Virus record (IMG/VR): IMGVR_UViG_3300038701_000757
Coordinates: 1 to 37,422 of that record
Reading direction: 5' to 3' (one strand)
From: a virus
Length of the DNA: 37,422 nt
Both the position numbers and the translations under genes were made by a program. Position 1 is the stretch's first letter. Every line of letters begins with the position of its first letter. The notes beneath the pieces are model-generated. The model did no database searches, was not told where the DNA came from, and worked only from the letters and a program-made list of their open reading frames with translations. Below, one piece after another: positions 4,760 through 36,344 of the stretch.

Positions 4760-4935
4760 TTAAGAGCTACTACAAAGACGGGATAACGTATCTCTACAAG
4801 GTGACCGATGGGGAGGTCGGATTAATTGAGGTACATGCTGGGAGTGATTATATCCCGAAACATCAGTTAGATATAAAGCTGATTGAACAGCAGTTAAAGC
4901 AGATTGAAAGCGGCCAGGTTGGGGTTGAGGTATGA
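4756..4935 (+). CDS. Small protein of unknown function (59 aa)
   Basis: It starts at ATG 4756 inside the GAGAAACGATGA seam and ends at TGA 4935, overlapping the nuclease start at 4932. The N-terminus (MIKSYYKDGITYLYKVTDG) looks like a small beta-sheet and the C-terminus is an amphipathic helix with LIEQQLKQIESGQ. Tight coupling to the Cas4-like nuclease gene hints at shared expression but says nothing about function. Confidence 0.65.
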   Translation: MIKSYYKDGITYLYKVTDGEVGLIEVHAGSDYIPKHQLDIKLIEQQLKQIESGQVGVEV

Positions 4936-5915
4936 ATATAATTTCAAGCTTTGATGAATTTCTATTACAGAATGAGACACGGAAGAAGCGGACACACAAC
5001 CCGTCAGACCTTACCGCCTGCCTACGACAGCTTTACTACAAATGGAACGGTGTAGAGAAATCTAACCCACCGACGGCCGGGAATATTATCAAGATGCAAT
5101 TCGGTAACTTAGCCGAAGAGCTACTTGTGCCGTGGCTTGATAACGAGGTACACAAGGGCCGAATACAAGGCTATGAGCAACAGGTAGAAGTATGGAGCAA
5201 TGAGCCGGATTTAGAGGTTCAGCTACACGGCTACCAGGACTTTGTACTTACCAGGCCCGATGGTACGAAAGTCGGCCTTGAGTGTAAGTCAAGCTTTGGC
5301 CAAGGGATTAAATACATCCAGTCCACCGGGAAGCCTAAGCCGGAACACCTGGTACAATGCTACGCCTACATGAAATACGGTGAGCCAAAAGAGTATTGGT
5401 TATTCTATATCGGCAGGGACAATGGATACCGTACCTGCTTCTACTTGACGTATAACGAAACACGCGAAGCAATAACCTTTGATGACTTAGCAGATTTTTA
5501 TCATAAAAAAACAGGCGGTACTGCTAGGACAAAACCAATGGACTCAGTTGTAGAGTGGGCCACAAAGCAAGAAGAGATAGAATATGATGATGCAAATGAT
5601 TGTTATTATTTTAATGACTCCAAAAAGAATGGCTTGATGACCTGCGAAGGACAGCCGGTAAATATAGATTGGGATTACTACATTGGACGTATGCAGCTCA
5701 GTGAATCTACAATCGGCGGGGAGCTACCACCGGAGAGAGAGTTCAAGGCCGCCATCAAAGAAGGTAATCCTAAATATAGATACCAAAGAAACAATGTAAC
5801 ATATTCCAGCGATTATCAATGCATGTACTGTGATTGGCTTAATCATTGTTGGAAACCCTTGATTGAAGATTCAAAAAATGGTACTATGTACTATGGAGAT
5901 GAGGTAGTGGAATGA
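4932..5915 (+). CDS. Cas4/RecB-like PD-(D/E)XK exonuclease with iron-sulfur cysteines
   Basis: The 327-aa protein carries the RecB-family nuclease motifs. These are a helix with NPSDLTACLRQLYY at the N-terminus, HGYQDFV with the metal-binding Asp103, GLECKS with Glu117 and Lys119, and QCYAYM with Gln142. Four cysteines (Cys30, Cys297, Cys300, Cys306) are arranged as in Cas4 and AddB, one near the N-terminus and a C-x2-C-x5-C group near the end. That pattern predicts a 4Fe-4S cluster that staples the domain. Phage members act as 5' exonucleases in recombination, alongside ssDNA-binding proteins such as the one at 7650. It starts at ATG 4932, overlapping the previous gene by 4 bp. Confidence 0.88.
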   Translation: MNIISSFDEFLLQNETRKKRTHNPSDLTACLRQLYYKWNGVEKSNPPTAGNIIKMQFGNLAEELLVPWLDNEVHKGRIQGYEQQVEVWSNEPDLEVQLHGYQDFVLTRPDGTKVGLECKSSFGQGIKYIQSTGKPKPEHLVQCYAYMKYGEPKEYWLFYIGRDNGYRTCFYLTYNETREAITFDDLADFYHKKTGGTARTKPMDSVVEWATKQEEIEYDDANDCYYFNDSKKNGLMTCEGQPVNIDWDYYIGRMQLSESTIGGELPPEREFKAAIKEGNPKYRYQRNNVTYSSDYQCMYCDWLNHCWKPLIEDSKNGTMYYGDEVVE

Positions 5916-32288: not shown

Positions 32289-32923
32289 AGTCTACTCCTT
32301 AGAAACTTCAATTTCGCAATCTGGAAATCAACCTCATCGTCGATATCTTGGGCCGACATCTCATCCACAAGACACCACTTTATACGCTGCATCGGTAGCG
32401 GGATGGTTAAAGTCTCAGGCTTAAACCACCGCAATGTCCCGGCATCGTGAAAGATAGCGTCGCAGTCCTGGGTGCGCTTGTGGACAAACTCAGGCTTCCA
32501 ATACCCGCCGTTAACAATACCACGCTGCGGAGGGTGCCTGTACTCCTGGCACTCCATGACAGAGTCGTGATTTTTTAAATATGCACTTGTTGAAATGATA
32601 CGTTTTGCACTGAGGAGGACAGAAAACGGATAGACGCGACAGAATGCTGTTTCTTGCTCGTATAGTTCCGTGATATGCTTAAGCACTAATGTCTCTGATA
32701 CATCCCCGCATAACTCATCAGGGCGCATGATAGCAGTTGCCCCGTAGAACTCCGCTATATCTGCAATCTCTTTTGAGTCGGTTGATACGATAATATTGTT
32801 GAAAATATCGGCCTTGATAGCCTCGACAATCGGATACGAAATTATCGGATGTCCGAAGAAATCAAGTATATTCTTGTTCGGTAGGCGGGTGGAACCGCCA
32901 CGGGCGGGAATGATACATATCAT
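32285..32923 (-). CDS. CMP-nonulosonic acid cytidylyltransferase (PseF/NeuA-like)
   Basis: From ATG 32923 (ATGA overlap with the acetyltransferase stop) the protein is 212 aa. It begins MICIIPARGGSTRLPNKNI, the CTP-binding P-loop of the CMP-sialic acid synthetase family, and has IIVSTDSKEIADIAEFYGA, the conserved sugar and nucleotide-binding strand. The end HDAGTLRWF and CLVDEMSAQDIDDEVDF agree. The enzyme joins CTP and a nonulosonic acid to give the activated CMP-sugar. The five sugar genes are in one tight operon. Exact sugar specificity (pseudaminic, legionaminic or another) cannot be read from sequence. Confidence 0.85.
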   Translation of the reverse strand: MICIIPARGGSTRLPNKNILDFFGHPIISYPIVEAIKADIFNNIIVSTDSKEIADIAEFYGATAIMRPDELCGDVSETLVLKHITELYEQETAFCRVYPFSVLLSAKRIISTSAYLKNHDSVMECQEYRHPPQRGIVNGGYWKPEFVHKRTQDCDAIFHDAGTLRWFKPETLTIPLPMQRIKWCLVDEMSAQDIDDEVDFQIAKLKFLRSRL

Positions 32924-33444
32924 AGGGCAAACCACATGCTATCGTAATAGTGTCCCTGCCAGAGCTTACGGTTAGGTAGCTTGGTAGCGTAACCCCCGAA
33001 CTGCTCCACAACTTTCTGCCAGAAAGCAACATTACCGCAAGTATACACCTCACCCCAAATAGTCTTGAGCCCCATGTTTAACTTCCCCTCGGTCACCAAT
33101 AGCTTGACAGACTCCATACCTAACCCCTCGCGGCGGTGTGCAGGATTGATTATCAGGCTGATTTCCCCGGTTGAATTTACCCAATCGATATTCGTAATCC
33201 CGCCCATTCCGATTAACTCACGCTCGAAATCGTCATCATCTATATAGGTATCGTAGGCATAATCGACATAACGGGCAATAGCAAAGTACCTATGCTGTGA
33301 GTTCCTATTGCAAACTACATCATGGTAAAAATCATCTTGCATATCTTCTGTGATAAAATAAGGAGTCCGTAAGAATTGGCGTTCATCGTTGCGCCATTCT
33401 AAAACCTCTAATACATCATCTTGGGTGAGTGCATCAAGCTTCAT
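32920..33444 (-). CDS. GNAT acetyltransferase, PseH-like
   Basis: The 174-aa protein has the GNAT acetyl-CoA motif RREGLG at about 108-113, preceded by GEISLIINPAH and followed by the typical IWGEVYTCGNVAFWQKVVEQ. The N-terminus (DVLEVLEWRNDERQFL) is the start seen in PseH-type N-acetyltransferases. In the pathway it would acetylate the 4-amino group of the sugar nucleotide made by PseC. It overlaps both neighbours by 4 bp. The GNAT fold is clear; PseH is supported by operon context. Confidence 0.78.
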   Translation of the reverse strand: MKLDALTQDDVLEVLEWRNDERQFLRTPYFITEDMQDDFYHDVVCNRNSQHRYFAIARYVDYAYDTYIDDDDFERELIGMGGITNIDWVNSTGEISLIINPAHRREGLGMESVKLLVTEGKLNMGLKTIWGEVYTCGNVAFWQKVVEQFGGYATKLPNRKLWQGHYYDSMWFAL

Positions 33445-34046
33445 AAAATCCTCACTAAATCCTCAGGAACACAAGCAAATACTCCCGCATCCGGGTTATT
33501 GTCGTTATGCTCTAATACGTAATGCTTCTCATATATTGCGGGCTTGTATTGATGGTAGAGCCTAAAGCCCTCCGTATGGTCACTTATTCCGGCATGTAGC
33601 TGTGCCCTGGTGAACTTACGTTCATACTCCTCAACGTCTGCCGGGTACTTTGATACGCAAGCCATCACATCGCCAAATGGTGTATTGGTAACATCGGGAG
33701 GGGTGCTTACAATAACCTTTCGCGCAGTCTTTAGGGCCAAGCTGTACAACTCAGGGCGGGCGGCAATCTTGATAAATGGGACCCTGAACGTATCAAGGAA
33801 CCTTAGGCTCTCCTCATCGAATACGCTCGCCGTGGTTTCGTATCCCCTGCTTTTTGCGTAGTCATATGCAAACTCAAAAACCTCATAGTCAAGCGGCAGG
33901 TTAGGCGGCGCGTCCTGGAATATCTGCCATTTTAACACAACCTCTTTTCGTCCGGTGTCGTTTTCCGCTACTCCGTCTATCATCTCCTTGACAATGCTAA
34001 AATCGTTCTGACAGGTATTTCCAGAGCCTAAGTCAAGTATAATCAT
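33441..34046 (-). CDS. Compact nonulosonic acid synthase (PseI/NeuB-like)
   Basis: The 201-aa protein carries the NeuB/PseI landmarks in order: VVLKWQIFQDAP (Lys39), FIKIAARPEL (91-100), VIVSTPPDV, GISDHTEGF (153-161) and YEKHYVLEHN (172-181). The family condenses phosphoenolpyruvate with a 6-deoxy-hexosamine. Cellular enzymes have about 340 residues, with a TIM barrel and a C-terminal SAF domain. Here the SAF domain is absent and the barrel is shortened, yet the active-site signatures are kept. It overlaps both neighbours by 4 bp. Whether it is active alone is unknown. Confidence 0.75.
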   Translation of the reverse strand: MIILDLGSGNTCQNDFSIVKEMIDGVAENDTGRKEVVLKWQIFQDAPPNLPLDYEVFEFAYDYAKSRGYETTASVFDEESLRFLDTFRVPFIKIAARPELYSLALKTARKVIVSTPPDVTNTPFGDVMACVSKYPADVEEYERKFTRAQLHAGISDHTEGFRLYHQYKPAIYEKHYVLEHNDNNPDAGVFACVPEDLVRIL

Positions 34047-34663
34047 GCCGTATGCCTCCTGAAATATTCAAACTGTGATATGTCAGGATACTCGCCTGGT
34101 ATTGGCTTATTGTGTTCTTTAAGACCAGCCATCAGCATCAACCCCCGTGCTGCTACATCCGGTTTTTGGTGGCAGTGCATAGACGGTAGTGCAAACTCGT
34201 CATCGAATACAGACTTCCCAGGCGTCCTACCATCAAAGCGCATCTGGCGTAAGTAGTCATAGGCGTTTTTATCGTCTGTTAGAATCATCCCACCATCGCC
34301 AACCGGCAACTGCTTGCTCTCATGGAACGACAAGCATAGAAAAGTACCAGGCTCGTACATATCCGAAGTAAGCCACCGCGCTGAATCAACTATCCGCGAC
34401 GGCCACAGCCTATACAACCCAATCCACTGGTAGTCCATCCATTTAATATAATGGCCGTTGTTGATTATGGCATGGGCAACCCCGACATAGGTATGTTTCG
34501 GTAGTTCTATATCGTCGGTAGACTTGATCTGTCCGATGATATTCTCATACATCAGAGAAAGAGCAATAGCGTTTGTGCATGAGTTCACGGCTACCCCGTA
34601 AGGAGCGCCAGCGTATTCAGCCATTCGTTTTTCGAACTCGTTAACCACGTCGTAGACGTTCAT
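34043..34663 (-). CDS. Compact DegT-type aminotransferase, PseC-like
   Basis: The 206-aa protein shows PLP-aminotransferase features: VAVNSCTNAIALSL (24-37), LPKHTYVGVAHAI, the cofactor-binding Asp93 in IVDSARW, and Lys117 in LSFHESKQLPVGDGGMIL. Full-length PseC-type enzymes have about 380 residues. This one keeps the large PLP domain and lacks most of the C-terminal small domain, ending soon after PDVAARGLMLMAGL. It would transfer an amino group to the keto sugar made by PseB. It overlaps the HNH gene by 23 bp. Confidence 0.75.
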   Translation of the reverse strand: MNVYDVVNEFEKRMAEYAGAPYGVAVNSCTNAIALSLMYENIIGQIKSTDDIELPKHTYVGVAHAIINNGHYIKWMDYQWIGLYRLWPSRIVDSARWLTSDMYEPGTFLCLSFHESKQLPVGDGGMILTDDKNAYDYLRQMRFDGRTPGKSVFDDEFALPSMHCHQKPDVAARGLMLMAGLKEHNKPIPGEYPDISQFEYFRRHTA

Positions 34664-35102
34664 TTATATCCAACCTCCCCATGTGAACCATCTTGTGGCA
34701 CTTTGCACACAACCACACAACGTCAAGTGGCTTTGAATAATCATCATGGTGCGCATGTATTTTGCTTTTACTGCCTCTCCCTTCAGAACCGCATACCTCA
34801 CAATTATAACGCCTAACTATAAAACCATCTTTTATCGCTTTCTTTAATTCGTTGTGCGCCAATAATTTTTCTGGATTTTTATTATAATATTTCATCGAAG
34901 AGCGCGTTAAAACGTGTGTATTTGCACGATGGTACTCTCTTTTTTGGGAAAGATACTTTTCGCTGTTGTCCTTATAGTTTTTATTTACTATCTTATGGTG
35001 GCAATCCTTACAATGTCTGTAAAAACCTGTCGTGCTTGAACTGCGCTTATAGTATTCTGATTGATCCTTTTCTTCCTTGCACATGCTACATATAAAAGTC
35101 AT
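34641..35102 (-). CDS. HNH endonuclease inside the sugar operon
   Basis: The 153-aa protein has two zinc-binding Cys pairs at the start (CSMCKEEK, CKDCHHK) and an HNH core (CEVCGSEGRGSKSKIHAHHD, DVVWLCAKCHKMVH). It resembles free-standing phage homing endonucleases. It is wedged between pseB-like and pseC-like genes, overlapping the first by 17 bp and the second by 23 bp. Both neighbours keep their frames. It is probably a mobile gene that settled at the junction without breaking the operon. Ribosome binding is weak. Confidence 0.85.
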   Translation of the reverse strand: MTFICSMCKEEKDQSEYYKRSSSTTGFYRHCKDCHHKIVNKNYKDNSEKYLSQKREYHRANTHVLTRSSMKYYNKNPEKLLAHNELKKAIKDGFIVRRYNCEVCGSEGRGSKSKIHAHHDDYSKPLDVVWLCAKCHKMVHMGRLDINERLRRG

Positions 35103-35889
35103 TTATCATGCCCCGTATTTCTTCAACTGTCATCTTTTCAGCGTCATCGGATGAAAAGTCTCTCCTCAACTTCTCACACAGCTTCTCACCTGGCTGTATC
35201 CCTATAACCTCAAATGTAGCGTCTTTGTCAAACGCTTGGGCCAAGTCGGTTATTCTGATAGCCTTTAGAGTGGCTATTGTATAGCTCGAAGGATCAGCTT
35301 CTAAGGCAGAGTCAACCAAATCCATAGCCTGGTCAAATGTTGCTATAAACCTAGTCATCCTTGGGTCCGTTATCGTGAACAGATGCCCCTTTGATGCCTG
35401 TTCCTTGAATATATGCAATATAGAGCCAGAAGAACCCCAAATGTTCCCATACCTTACTACTCGATGCCCACCATCAATGGTGAACTTCTCAGCTATCATC
35501 TTGGAAGCGCCGTATAGATTGACTGGCTCGACAGCTTTATCGGTTGAGAGTAAAACCATCTTAGCGCGGTTGACATTGGCGGCCGATACTACGTTTTTAG
35601 TTCCATCAACGTTAGTCTTGATAACCTCTACCGGCTGCTCTTCCCCGGTTCTGACGTGCTTTAGTGCTGCCGTGTGGACGATGTAATCACATCCAACAGC
35701 AGCCGCAACCGTTGCCGGGTAGTCTCTTACATCTCCTATGATGTACTCGGCCTCTGGTAGGCTCTTTCGCATTTCGAATTGCTTTAGTTCATTACGTGAA
35801 AAGATAACGGCCTCATCACCGCGTTCAATCAACCGCTTGGCGTATCGACTCCCGAAAGAACCTGTCCCGCCTGTTATTAAATACCGCAT
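35086..35889 (-). CDS. UDP-GlcNAc 4,6-dehydratase (PseB-like)
   Basis: I start at ATG 35889 (AGGTG upstream), because an in-frame ATG at 35901 lies at or before the likely transcription start. The 267-aa protein is a short-chain dehydrogenase with the NAD-binding GGTGSFG (7-13), TAALKHV and the active-site pair STDKAVEPVNLYGASK (115-130, with Lys118, Tyr126 and Lys130). The STDKA plus YGASK combination is typical of inverting PseB-type dehydratases, which begin pseudaminic acid synthesis from UDP-GlcNAc. It is slightly shorter than cellular PseB (about 330 aa). It opens the operon. Confidence 0.87.
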   Translation of the reverse strand: MRYLITGGTGSFGSRYAKRLIERGDEAVIFSRNELKQFEMRKSLPEAEYIIGDVRDYPATVAAAVGCDYIVHTAALKHVRTGEEQPVEVIKTNVDGTKNVVSAANVNRAKMVLLSTDKAVEPVNLYGASKMIAEKFTIDGGHRVVRYGNIWGSSGSILHIFKEQASKGHLFTITDPRMTRFIATFDQAMDLVDSALEADPSSYTIATLKAIRITDLAQAFDKDATFEVIGIQPGEKLCEKLRRDFSSDDAEKMTVEEIRGMINDFYM

Positions 35890-35905
35890 GTAACACCTCA
35901 TCTAC

Positions 35906-35944: not shown

Positions 35945-35982
35945 AAAAAAAAAGACAGACCCCATGAACCAAAGGGCCTGCC
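35945..35982 (-). terminator. Strong intrinsic terminator of the leftward early block
   Basis: On the minus strand a 9-bp stem (35974-35982 with 35954-35962, two G-U pairs) and an 11-nt loop are followed by nine T residues (35945-35953). It would end the transcript carrying the small early genes and the tmRNA-like RNA. On the plus strand there is no T-tract, so it is one-directional. Confidence 0.9.
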
Positions 35983-36063
35983 TCCTACTAATGATTTACG
36001 ATAGATAGTTGAACAATACAAATATTTGTGGGCTTATGCCCTCCCGGTCAACGACACGGGTGT

Positions 36064-36087: not shown

Positions 36088-36167
36088 TGGACGCGGGGGT
36101 AATCGAAACCCCGTCCGGTCTGTTCGCTATTCGCGATTTGCAAACCGTCGAAACCAATCACGCGCCC
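36088..36167 (-). ncRNA. Minimal tmRNA-like RNA lacking the mRNA-like domain (80 nt)
   Basis: Reading the minus strand, GGGCGCG (5') pairs with CGCGTCC (3') as a 7-bp acceptor stem with a G3-U70 wobble and discriminator A. These are the main identity marks for alanyl-tRNA synthetase, as in tmRNA. It is followed by TGATT and GGTTTCGACGG, the tmRNA D-loop signature. There is no D stem. The T arm GGGGT-TTCGATT-ACCCC (36096-36112) is standard. In place of the tag frame and pseudoknots there is only one arm: GGTTTG/CAGACC, then TCGC/GCGA closing a GAATA loop. It lacks a normal anticodon arm. It lies 6 bp after a small gene, with its own candidate promoter and a terminator downstream. It could be charged with alanine and bind SmpB, or act as a decoy. 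Confidence 0.72.
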
Positions 36168-36173
36168 GTCTCT

Positions 36174-36344
36174 TTACTCTCGCCACTTCATCATACTATG
36201 CACCCTATGCCACGGCAGAAAGTGCCAGTACTTACGCTCTTCTGGTAGTCTATACCATACGCCGTGAGTTGTCAAGCTTACCTTGTCGGCTGTTTCGCAG
36301 AATGTAGGCCCGGAGCATATCTGATATCCTTTACGTGGCCTCAT
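36174..36344 (-). CDS. Small basic protein of unknown function (56 aa)
   Basis: It starts at ATG 36344 directly after the previous gene's TAG, with GAGGAGGATAAG as the ribosome binding site. The protein has two cysteines (Cys10, Cys16) near the start and is basic and rich in Trp and His towards the end (YWHFLPWHRVHSMMKWRE). It ends 6 bp before the tmRNA-like RNA. A promoter is embedded in it. No family is recognised. Confidence 0.6.
   Translation of the reverse strand: MRPRKGYQICSGPTFCETADKVSLTTHGVWYRLPEERKYWHFLPWHRVHSMMKWRE
36247..36275 (-). promoter_or_regulatory. Candidate promoter for the tmRNA-like RNA
   Basis: TTGACA (36270-36275) and TAGACT (36247-36252) are 17 bp apart on the minus strand, about 80 bp upstream of the RNA and inside the 56-aa gene. 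The -10 region also reads TATGGTATAGACT, so TATAGA at 15 bp is an alternative -10. Confidence 0.55.

Follow-up and report, generated by a model that had tools for sequence, protein, structure and literature searches.

The window analysed here is a stretch of viral DNA of 37,422 nucleotides (IMG/VR virus record IMGVR_UViG_3300038701_000757, positions 1 to 37,422), the genes of which include phage terminase, portal, capsid and tape measure. Its minus strand carries an 80-nt RNA gene (36167-36088) in which the whole tRNA-like domain (TLD) of tmRNA is present, and in which a P2 stem of 7 bp and a small hairpin occupy the site of the tmRNA tag and pseudoknots (Table 1). Along the minus strand the order is GGGCGCG-UGAUUGGUUUCGAC-GGUUUG-CAAAUCGCGAAUAGCGAA-CAGACC-GGAC-GGGGUUUCGAUUACCCC-CGCGUCC-A; all seven acceptor pairs are formed, G3-U70 among them, and the CCA end is not encoded, UAU coming next. 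The original prediction had placed a tmRNA-like RNA of 80 nt at these coordinates, which are right, and had described a 7-bp acceptor with G3-U70, an A discriminator, a region without D stem, a T arm and a short hairpin; sequence and fold agree with this anatomy. On folding the 80-nt gene, a z value of -2.8 was obtained, with 3 of 200 shuffles equally good, and the TLD motif pattern matched once in the window and in none of 100 shuffled windows.

Table 1. Coordinates of the RNA gene, its parts and its flanking features in the window
Feature	Position	Strand	Basis
TLD-only (MLD-less) tmRNA gene, mature part without CCA	36088..36167	-	Covariance model R1, 58.6 bits; RF00023, 46.5 bits
Acceptor 5' strand GGGCGCG, holding G3 of G3-U70	36161..36167	-	7/7 pairing with 36089-36095 (CGCGTCC)
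D-region UGAUUGGUUUCGAC, no D stem, tmRNA type	36147..36160	-	Sequence
P2 5' strand CGGUUUG	36141..36147	-	Pairs with 36116-36122; covaries in relatives
Inner hairpin UCGC-GAAUA-GCGA, 4 bp, at the tag/pseudoknot site	36124..36136	-	Fold; hairpins of relatives
P2 3' strand CAGACCG	36116..36122	-	Fold and covariation
T arm GGGGU-UUCGAUU-ACCCC, standard T loop	36096..36112	-	5/5 pairs
Acceptor 3' strand CGCGUCC and discriminator A73 (36088)	36088..36095	-	Sequence
Intrinsic terminator, 14-bp hairpin then U8	35950..35986	-	Fold -20.5 kcal/mol, z -5.1
Possible sigma-70 promoter TTGACA-17-TAGACT	36247..36275	-	10/12 consensus matches
56-aa ORF upstream of the RNA, 6-nt gap	36174..36344	-	Translation; GGAGG precedes ATG

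The terminator that had been predicted downstream is strong and lies about 100 nt from the RNA. The predicted promoter box (TTGACA/TAGACT) is likewise present; since it sits inside the 56-aa ORF, it is weak evidence and may be a chance match. This ORF and the RNA are possibly co-transcribed. No SmpB was found in the window, and the portal protein led to no close relatives of the window phage among the viral contigs. Elsewhere, a Cas4-like exonuclease is encoded at 4932-5915 on the plus strand, and the segment just downstream of the RNA (32920-35901) holds an epimerase, an aminotransferase, an HNH endonuclease and, as a weak match only, an acetyltransferase.

When the short stretch alone was searched with cmscan, the tmRNA model RF00023 aligned end to end (model 1-371) with 46.5 bits and an E-value of 5.4e-18, omitting 310 of its 374 positions. 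The cut-off is 47 bits, and the RNA was missed at the Rfam gathering threshold. ARAGORN made no call at it, and its identification as a tRNA was rejected, there being no D stem or anticodon arm. Among the traits of canonical tmRNA, the TLD with G3-U70 and A73 is present; the pseudoknots, for which there is no room, are absent (310 model positions are omitted), and so is the tag reading frame, the P2 strands being only 18 nt apart. A tag within the hairpin was considered, as the window has GCA AAU CGC GAA UAG there, and was rejected because the frame is not kept in relatives: their inter-P2 stretch holds any GCN-to-stop frame in only 22 of 96 cases and no stop codon in any frame in 15 of 96. 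The RNA shows the traits of a TLD-only class, namely a complete tmRNA TLD with little else, located in a phage genome.

On a BLAST comparison of the 80-nt RNA with phages, only Pontimonas phage phiPsal1 aligned over most of the length, with a weak E-value. Viral contigs were also searched with a pattern describing a TLD with a gap of 15-45 nt and an unrestricted 5' acceptor, which gave 101 viral stretches, 92 of them pairing at 7/7 acceptor and 5/5 T-stem positions, whereas one control pattern, scrambled but alike in composition and with its layout unchanged, matched nowhere. A second pattern, with the 5' motif fixed and position 70 free, gave at least 120 matches; among those listed, 103 loci were new and 96 of these passed the acceptor and T-stem test. 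Altogether, at least 147 unique TLD-only RNAs (7/7 acceptor, 5/5 T stem) were collected, mostly of 75-82 nt and almost all viral, which form at least 109 clusters at <85% identity. In the D-region the GG-U context is retained in most relatives, UUCGAC itself being a component of the search pattern. A pattern with a longer gap yielded a few RNAs of 109-124 nt. Intermediate TLD RNAs of 113-124 nt, with extra hairpins replacing the message, were seen above the RF00023 cut-off at loci L299, L304, L312, L318 and L326.

Bacterial and archaeal genomes (257 billion bases) gave 85 matches, just four of which were TLD-only; the other 81 fail the acceptor or T-stem test and are for the most part either 3' pieces of genuine tmRNA or chance matches. 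The genomes of these four also carry a full tmRNA (>130 bits), and the surroundings of the copies gave no demonstration of a prophage setting. The TLD-only form is strongly enriched in viruses.

Across 96 representatives, every T-stem pair and pairs 4-7 of the acceptor change with full compensation; the acceptor and T stems had served as match filters, by which few matches were lost, and P2 had not been used for selection. The seven P2 pairs covary in these representatives with z values of 5.6 to 11.8 against shuffles. Covariation was computed on a segment-wise alignment and on a further alignment, A2, because MAFFT (alignment A1) misplaced the 5' acceptor owing to the varying length of the D-region. 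In A2 (25 sequences) the covariation is 0.688, as against 0.155 after shuffling and at most 0.147 after sliding, and none of 500 shuffles was as high; the copies that neighbour a relative of the capsid gene of phiPsal1 gave 0.602 against 0.194. The inner hairpin has the form AA-CC-loop-GG in 70 of 96 relatives, where 12.4 are expected from shuffled sequences. A covariance model, R1, was built from A2 with the window left out and scored the window at 58.6 bits (E 3.5e-12), which indicates family likeness and not independent discovery, since the relatives had been found via motifs of the same RNA type. Searches with the Rfam tmRNA models and with a TLD-only model had been proposed at the outset; the former gave the end-to-end match described above and the latter this score.

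It had also been proposed that the RNA is a working one and not decayed, and that covarying acceptor and P2 pairs be sought in related loci. Both stems covary, homologues with a systematically broken acceptor were looked for and none appeared, and the many compensated changes strongly support the view that this is a working RNA under selection rather than a decayed fragment. A decayed tmRNA, or the attachment site of a phage integrating in ssrA, is hardly credible as an explanation: subcluster K1 mycobacteriophages do integrate at the tmRNA gene (PMC10865867), and tmRNA 3' ends stand beside the integrase in related phages, but here the TLD has both its halves and P2 is closed, and stems that covary across lineages already contradict decay. 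An attP in ssrA was rejected for the window on account of both TLD halves and the lack of a match to tyrosine integrase (PF00589) in it.

The family model scored 59-89 bits in the Streptomyces phages LuckySocke, pSt2308, BRock, Alone3 and Riptide, and also in Pontimonas phage phiPsal1 and Stenotrophomonas virus Jojan60; no tmRNA is annotated at the site of the TLD RNA in any of them. The next-best model matches (≤31 bits) resemble tRNAs and portions of tmRNAs, full or permuted. The RNA lies within tRNA clusters in the Streptomyces phages; in phiPsal1 and some dozen relatives from metagenomes it stands between the genes for prohead protease and capsid, and in yet other phages its position differs. 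About one fifth of the copies have a tRNA gene no more than 200 nt away, and 31 of 32 tRNA neighbours are on the same strand as the RNA. An intact TLD RNA is present in 10 of 80 capsid relatives, that is, the gene comes and goes. These positions, flanked by protease and capsid genes in some lineages and among tRNA genes in other lineages, might suggest a cis-acting processing element, a tRNA-like structure that punctuates the phage transcript with the help of RNase P and 3' processing. This is very unlikely, since position differs among phages, presence is patchy, and RNase P needs neither G3-U70 nor the tmRNA D-region.

Each of 50 carrier contigs gave a short match to RF00023 above the cut-off, and a full-length tmRNA and SmpB were each found in none of the 50, although the contigs may be fragments. 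A version with full tag and pseudoknots, which was looked for as the possible source of a deletion, was thus seen in none of the carriers examined.

The 136-kb viral contig IMGVR_UViG_3300027749_000047 (loci L231 and L256) bears two TLD-only RNAs that differ from each other and are separated by about 67 kb. Hypothetical-protein annotations, possibly false ORFs, overlap the TLD RNA in Jojan60 (L328:889-1080) and in Streptomyces phage GiJojo (PP725410, 17025-17102). Unlisted permuted tmRNA genes (RF04321, 71-119 bits) were observed in Pseudomonas phage SM1, Achromobacter phage JWDelta, Xanthomonas phage Rb1 and a Bohxovirus (crAss-like), the loci being L190:1474-1773, L333:970-1354, L334:973-1278 and L193:1469-1658. 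Gordonia phage GMA2 has, among its tRNA genes, a full tmRNA of 94.6 bits and a match to the Pistol ribozyme of 56.8 bits (L332:621-1032 and 1342-1398).

G3-U70 is the alanine signal. Among the matches listed for the pattern with position 70 free, pair 3:70 is G-U in 75 of 75 unique sequences, corresponding to 47 cluster representatives, whereas the neighbouring acceptor pairs 4-6 occur as four or more pair types. Selection for charging is the simplest reading of this invariance, which suggests that charging matters.

tmRNA is the bacterial RNA that rescues stuck ribosomes, and trans-translation is nearly universal in bacteria and is a drug target. The window RNA is probably a phage TLD-only decoy of the DS6A type, a rival of host tmRNA for binding to SmpB and to stalled ribosomes. 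It would be matured by 5' and 3' processing and by CCA addition in the host, charged by alanyl-tRNA synthetase via G3-U70, and bound by host SmpB and EF-Tu, as expected from the conserved determinants and from what is known of tmRNA. It would then compete with the tmRNA of the host for both SmpB and the stalled ribosomes, a step suggested by the inhibition of tmRNA by a similar RNA in the work of others. As there is no message, no tag would be added to the nascent chain and trans-translation would be blocked, which may spare truncated phage proteins and restrain host quality control during infection. According to PMC4131195, which cites Mao et al. 2009, and PMC11915505, a molecule similar to the DS6A RNA strongly inhibits tmRNA in E. 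coli whether it can be charged or not, and the former paper gives titration of SmpB as perhaps the cause. By analogy, this backs the interference with trans-translation that the original prediction had envisaged. The patchy presence among the capsid relatives counts against the decoy.

The published molecule inhibits without charging, and hence simple titration of SmpB fails to explain the invariant G3-U70. An alternative is that alanyl-TLD and SmpB enter the stalled ribosome, take the nascent chain onto alanine and aid its release without a tag, which would help translation of phage mRNAs broken in infection; a parallel could be imagined for the message-free mitochondrial tmRNAs. We regard such rescue as rather unlikely. 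The alanine signal is kept although, according to PMC4131195, inhibition does not need charging, a mitochondrial tmRNA without tag frame is retained together with SmpB (PMC11915505), and the tRNA neighbours noted above, with their shared strand, fit it as well; against this, the similar molecule inhibited tmRNA in E. coli, and, there being no stop codon, no known step releases peptidyl-alanyl-TLD. The contrast between inhibition independent of charging and an alanine signal that never varies, despite the turnover of neighbouring pairs, allows for an active function of the message-free RNA on the ribosome. It is conceivable, if doubtful, that phages widely use an alanine-chargeable, message-free tmRNA in peptide transfer, the chains being released or trapped untagged, and not as a passive SmpB sponge; this would amount to a viral message-free ribosome rescue or a ribosome trap.

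The RNA might instead titrate some other partner of tRNA-like molecules (EF-Tu, alanyl-tRNA synthetase, RNase P, or a defence factor with which the host recognises tmRNA or SmpB) and not act on trans-translation as such. The TLD and tRNA have common binding surfaces, and CoCoNuT systems bear SmpB-like domains predicted to meet tmRNA (PMC11090510); this explanation is nevertheless improbable, as the RNA retains the D-region specific to tmRNA (GGUUUCGAC, without D stem), which would be superfluous for a mimic of alanine tRNA. With the decoy as the preferred reading, the occurrence of the form in at least 109 clusters and in cultured Streptomyces, Pontimonas and Stenotrophomonas phages would make ribosome rescue a recurrent target in phage-host conflict. 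The cultured carriers are laboratory phages in which this can be tested, and the invariant G3-U70 makes the question of decoy versus active rescue decidable by one mutation.

The claim that no phage RNA of this form had been described proved wrong, as PMC4131195, with reference to Mao et al. 2009, lists Mycobacterium phage DS6A as having a 'TLD only' tmRNA (tmID 11587), and a paper of 2025 (PMC11915505) gives it as the phage example of a tag-less tmRNA form. It is the single phage RNA of the TLD-only form reported in the literature consulted. The breadth of the family, the covariation of P2 and the invariance of G3-U70 were not found in the open-access literature searched, a weak absence on which the family breadth and the invariant G3-U70 may be taken as what is new here. 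With the tmRNA of RF00023 the window RNA has in common the acceptor with G3-U70, the stemless D-region, the T arm and the start of P2; it differs in having neither tag frame nor pseudoknots and in a score just below 47 bits. The full or permuted tmRNAs of Bxz1, Bacillus phage G and Pseudomonas phage SM1 are likewise encoded by phages, but these keep the rest of tmRNA, the permuted form of SM1 scoring 118.6 bits. Mitochondrial tmRNAs without an mRNA-like region (jakobids, oomycetes; RF02544) and plastid forms of about 65 bp (PMC11915505) also lack the tag frame and retain the TLD; however, the mitochondrial genes are usually permuted, unlike the window RNA, which is one collinear phage RNA with a closed P2 hairpin. 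Compared by its published description, the DS6A RNA is also phage-borne, with little beyond the TLD and no tag frame, whereas the window phage, whose proteins have only remote relatives, encodes a portal and a terminase of the SPP1-like kind. The window RNA is an additional TLD-only tmRNA of the type known, by description, from DS6A.
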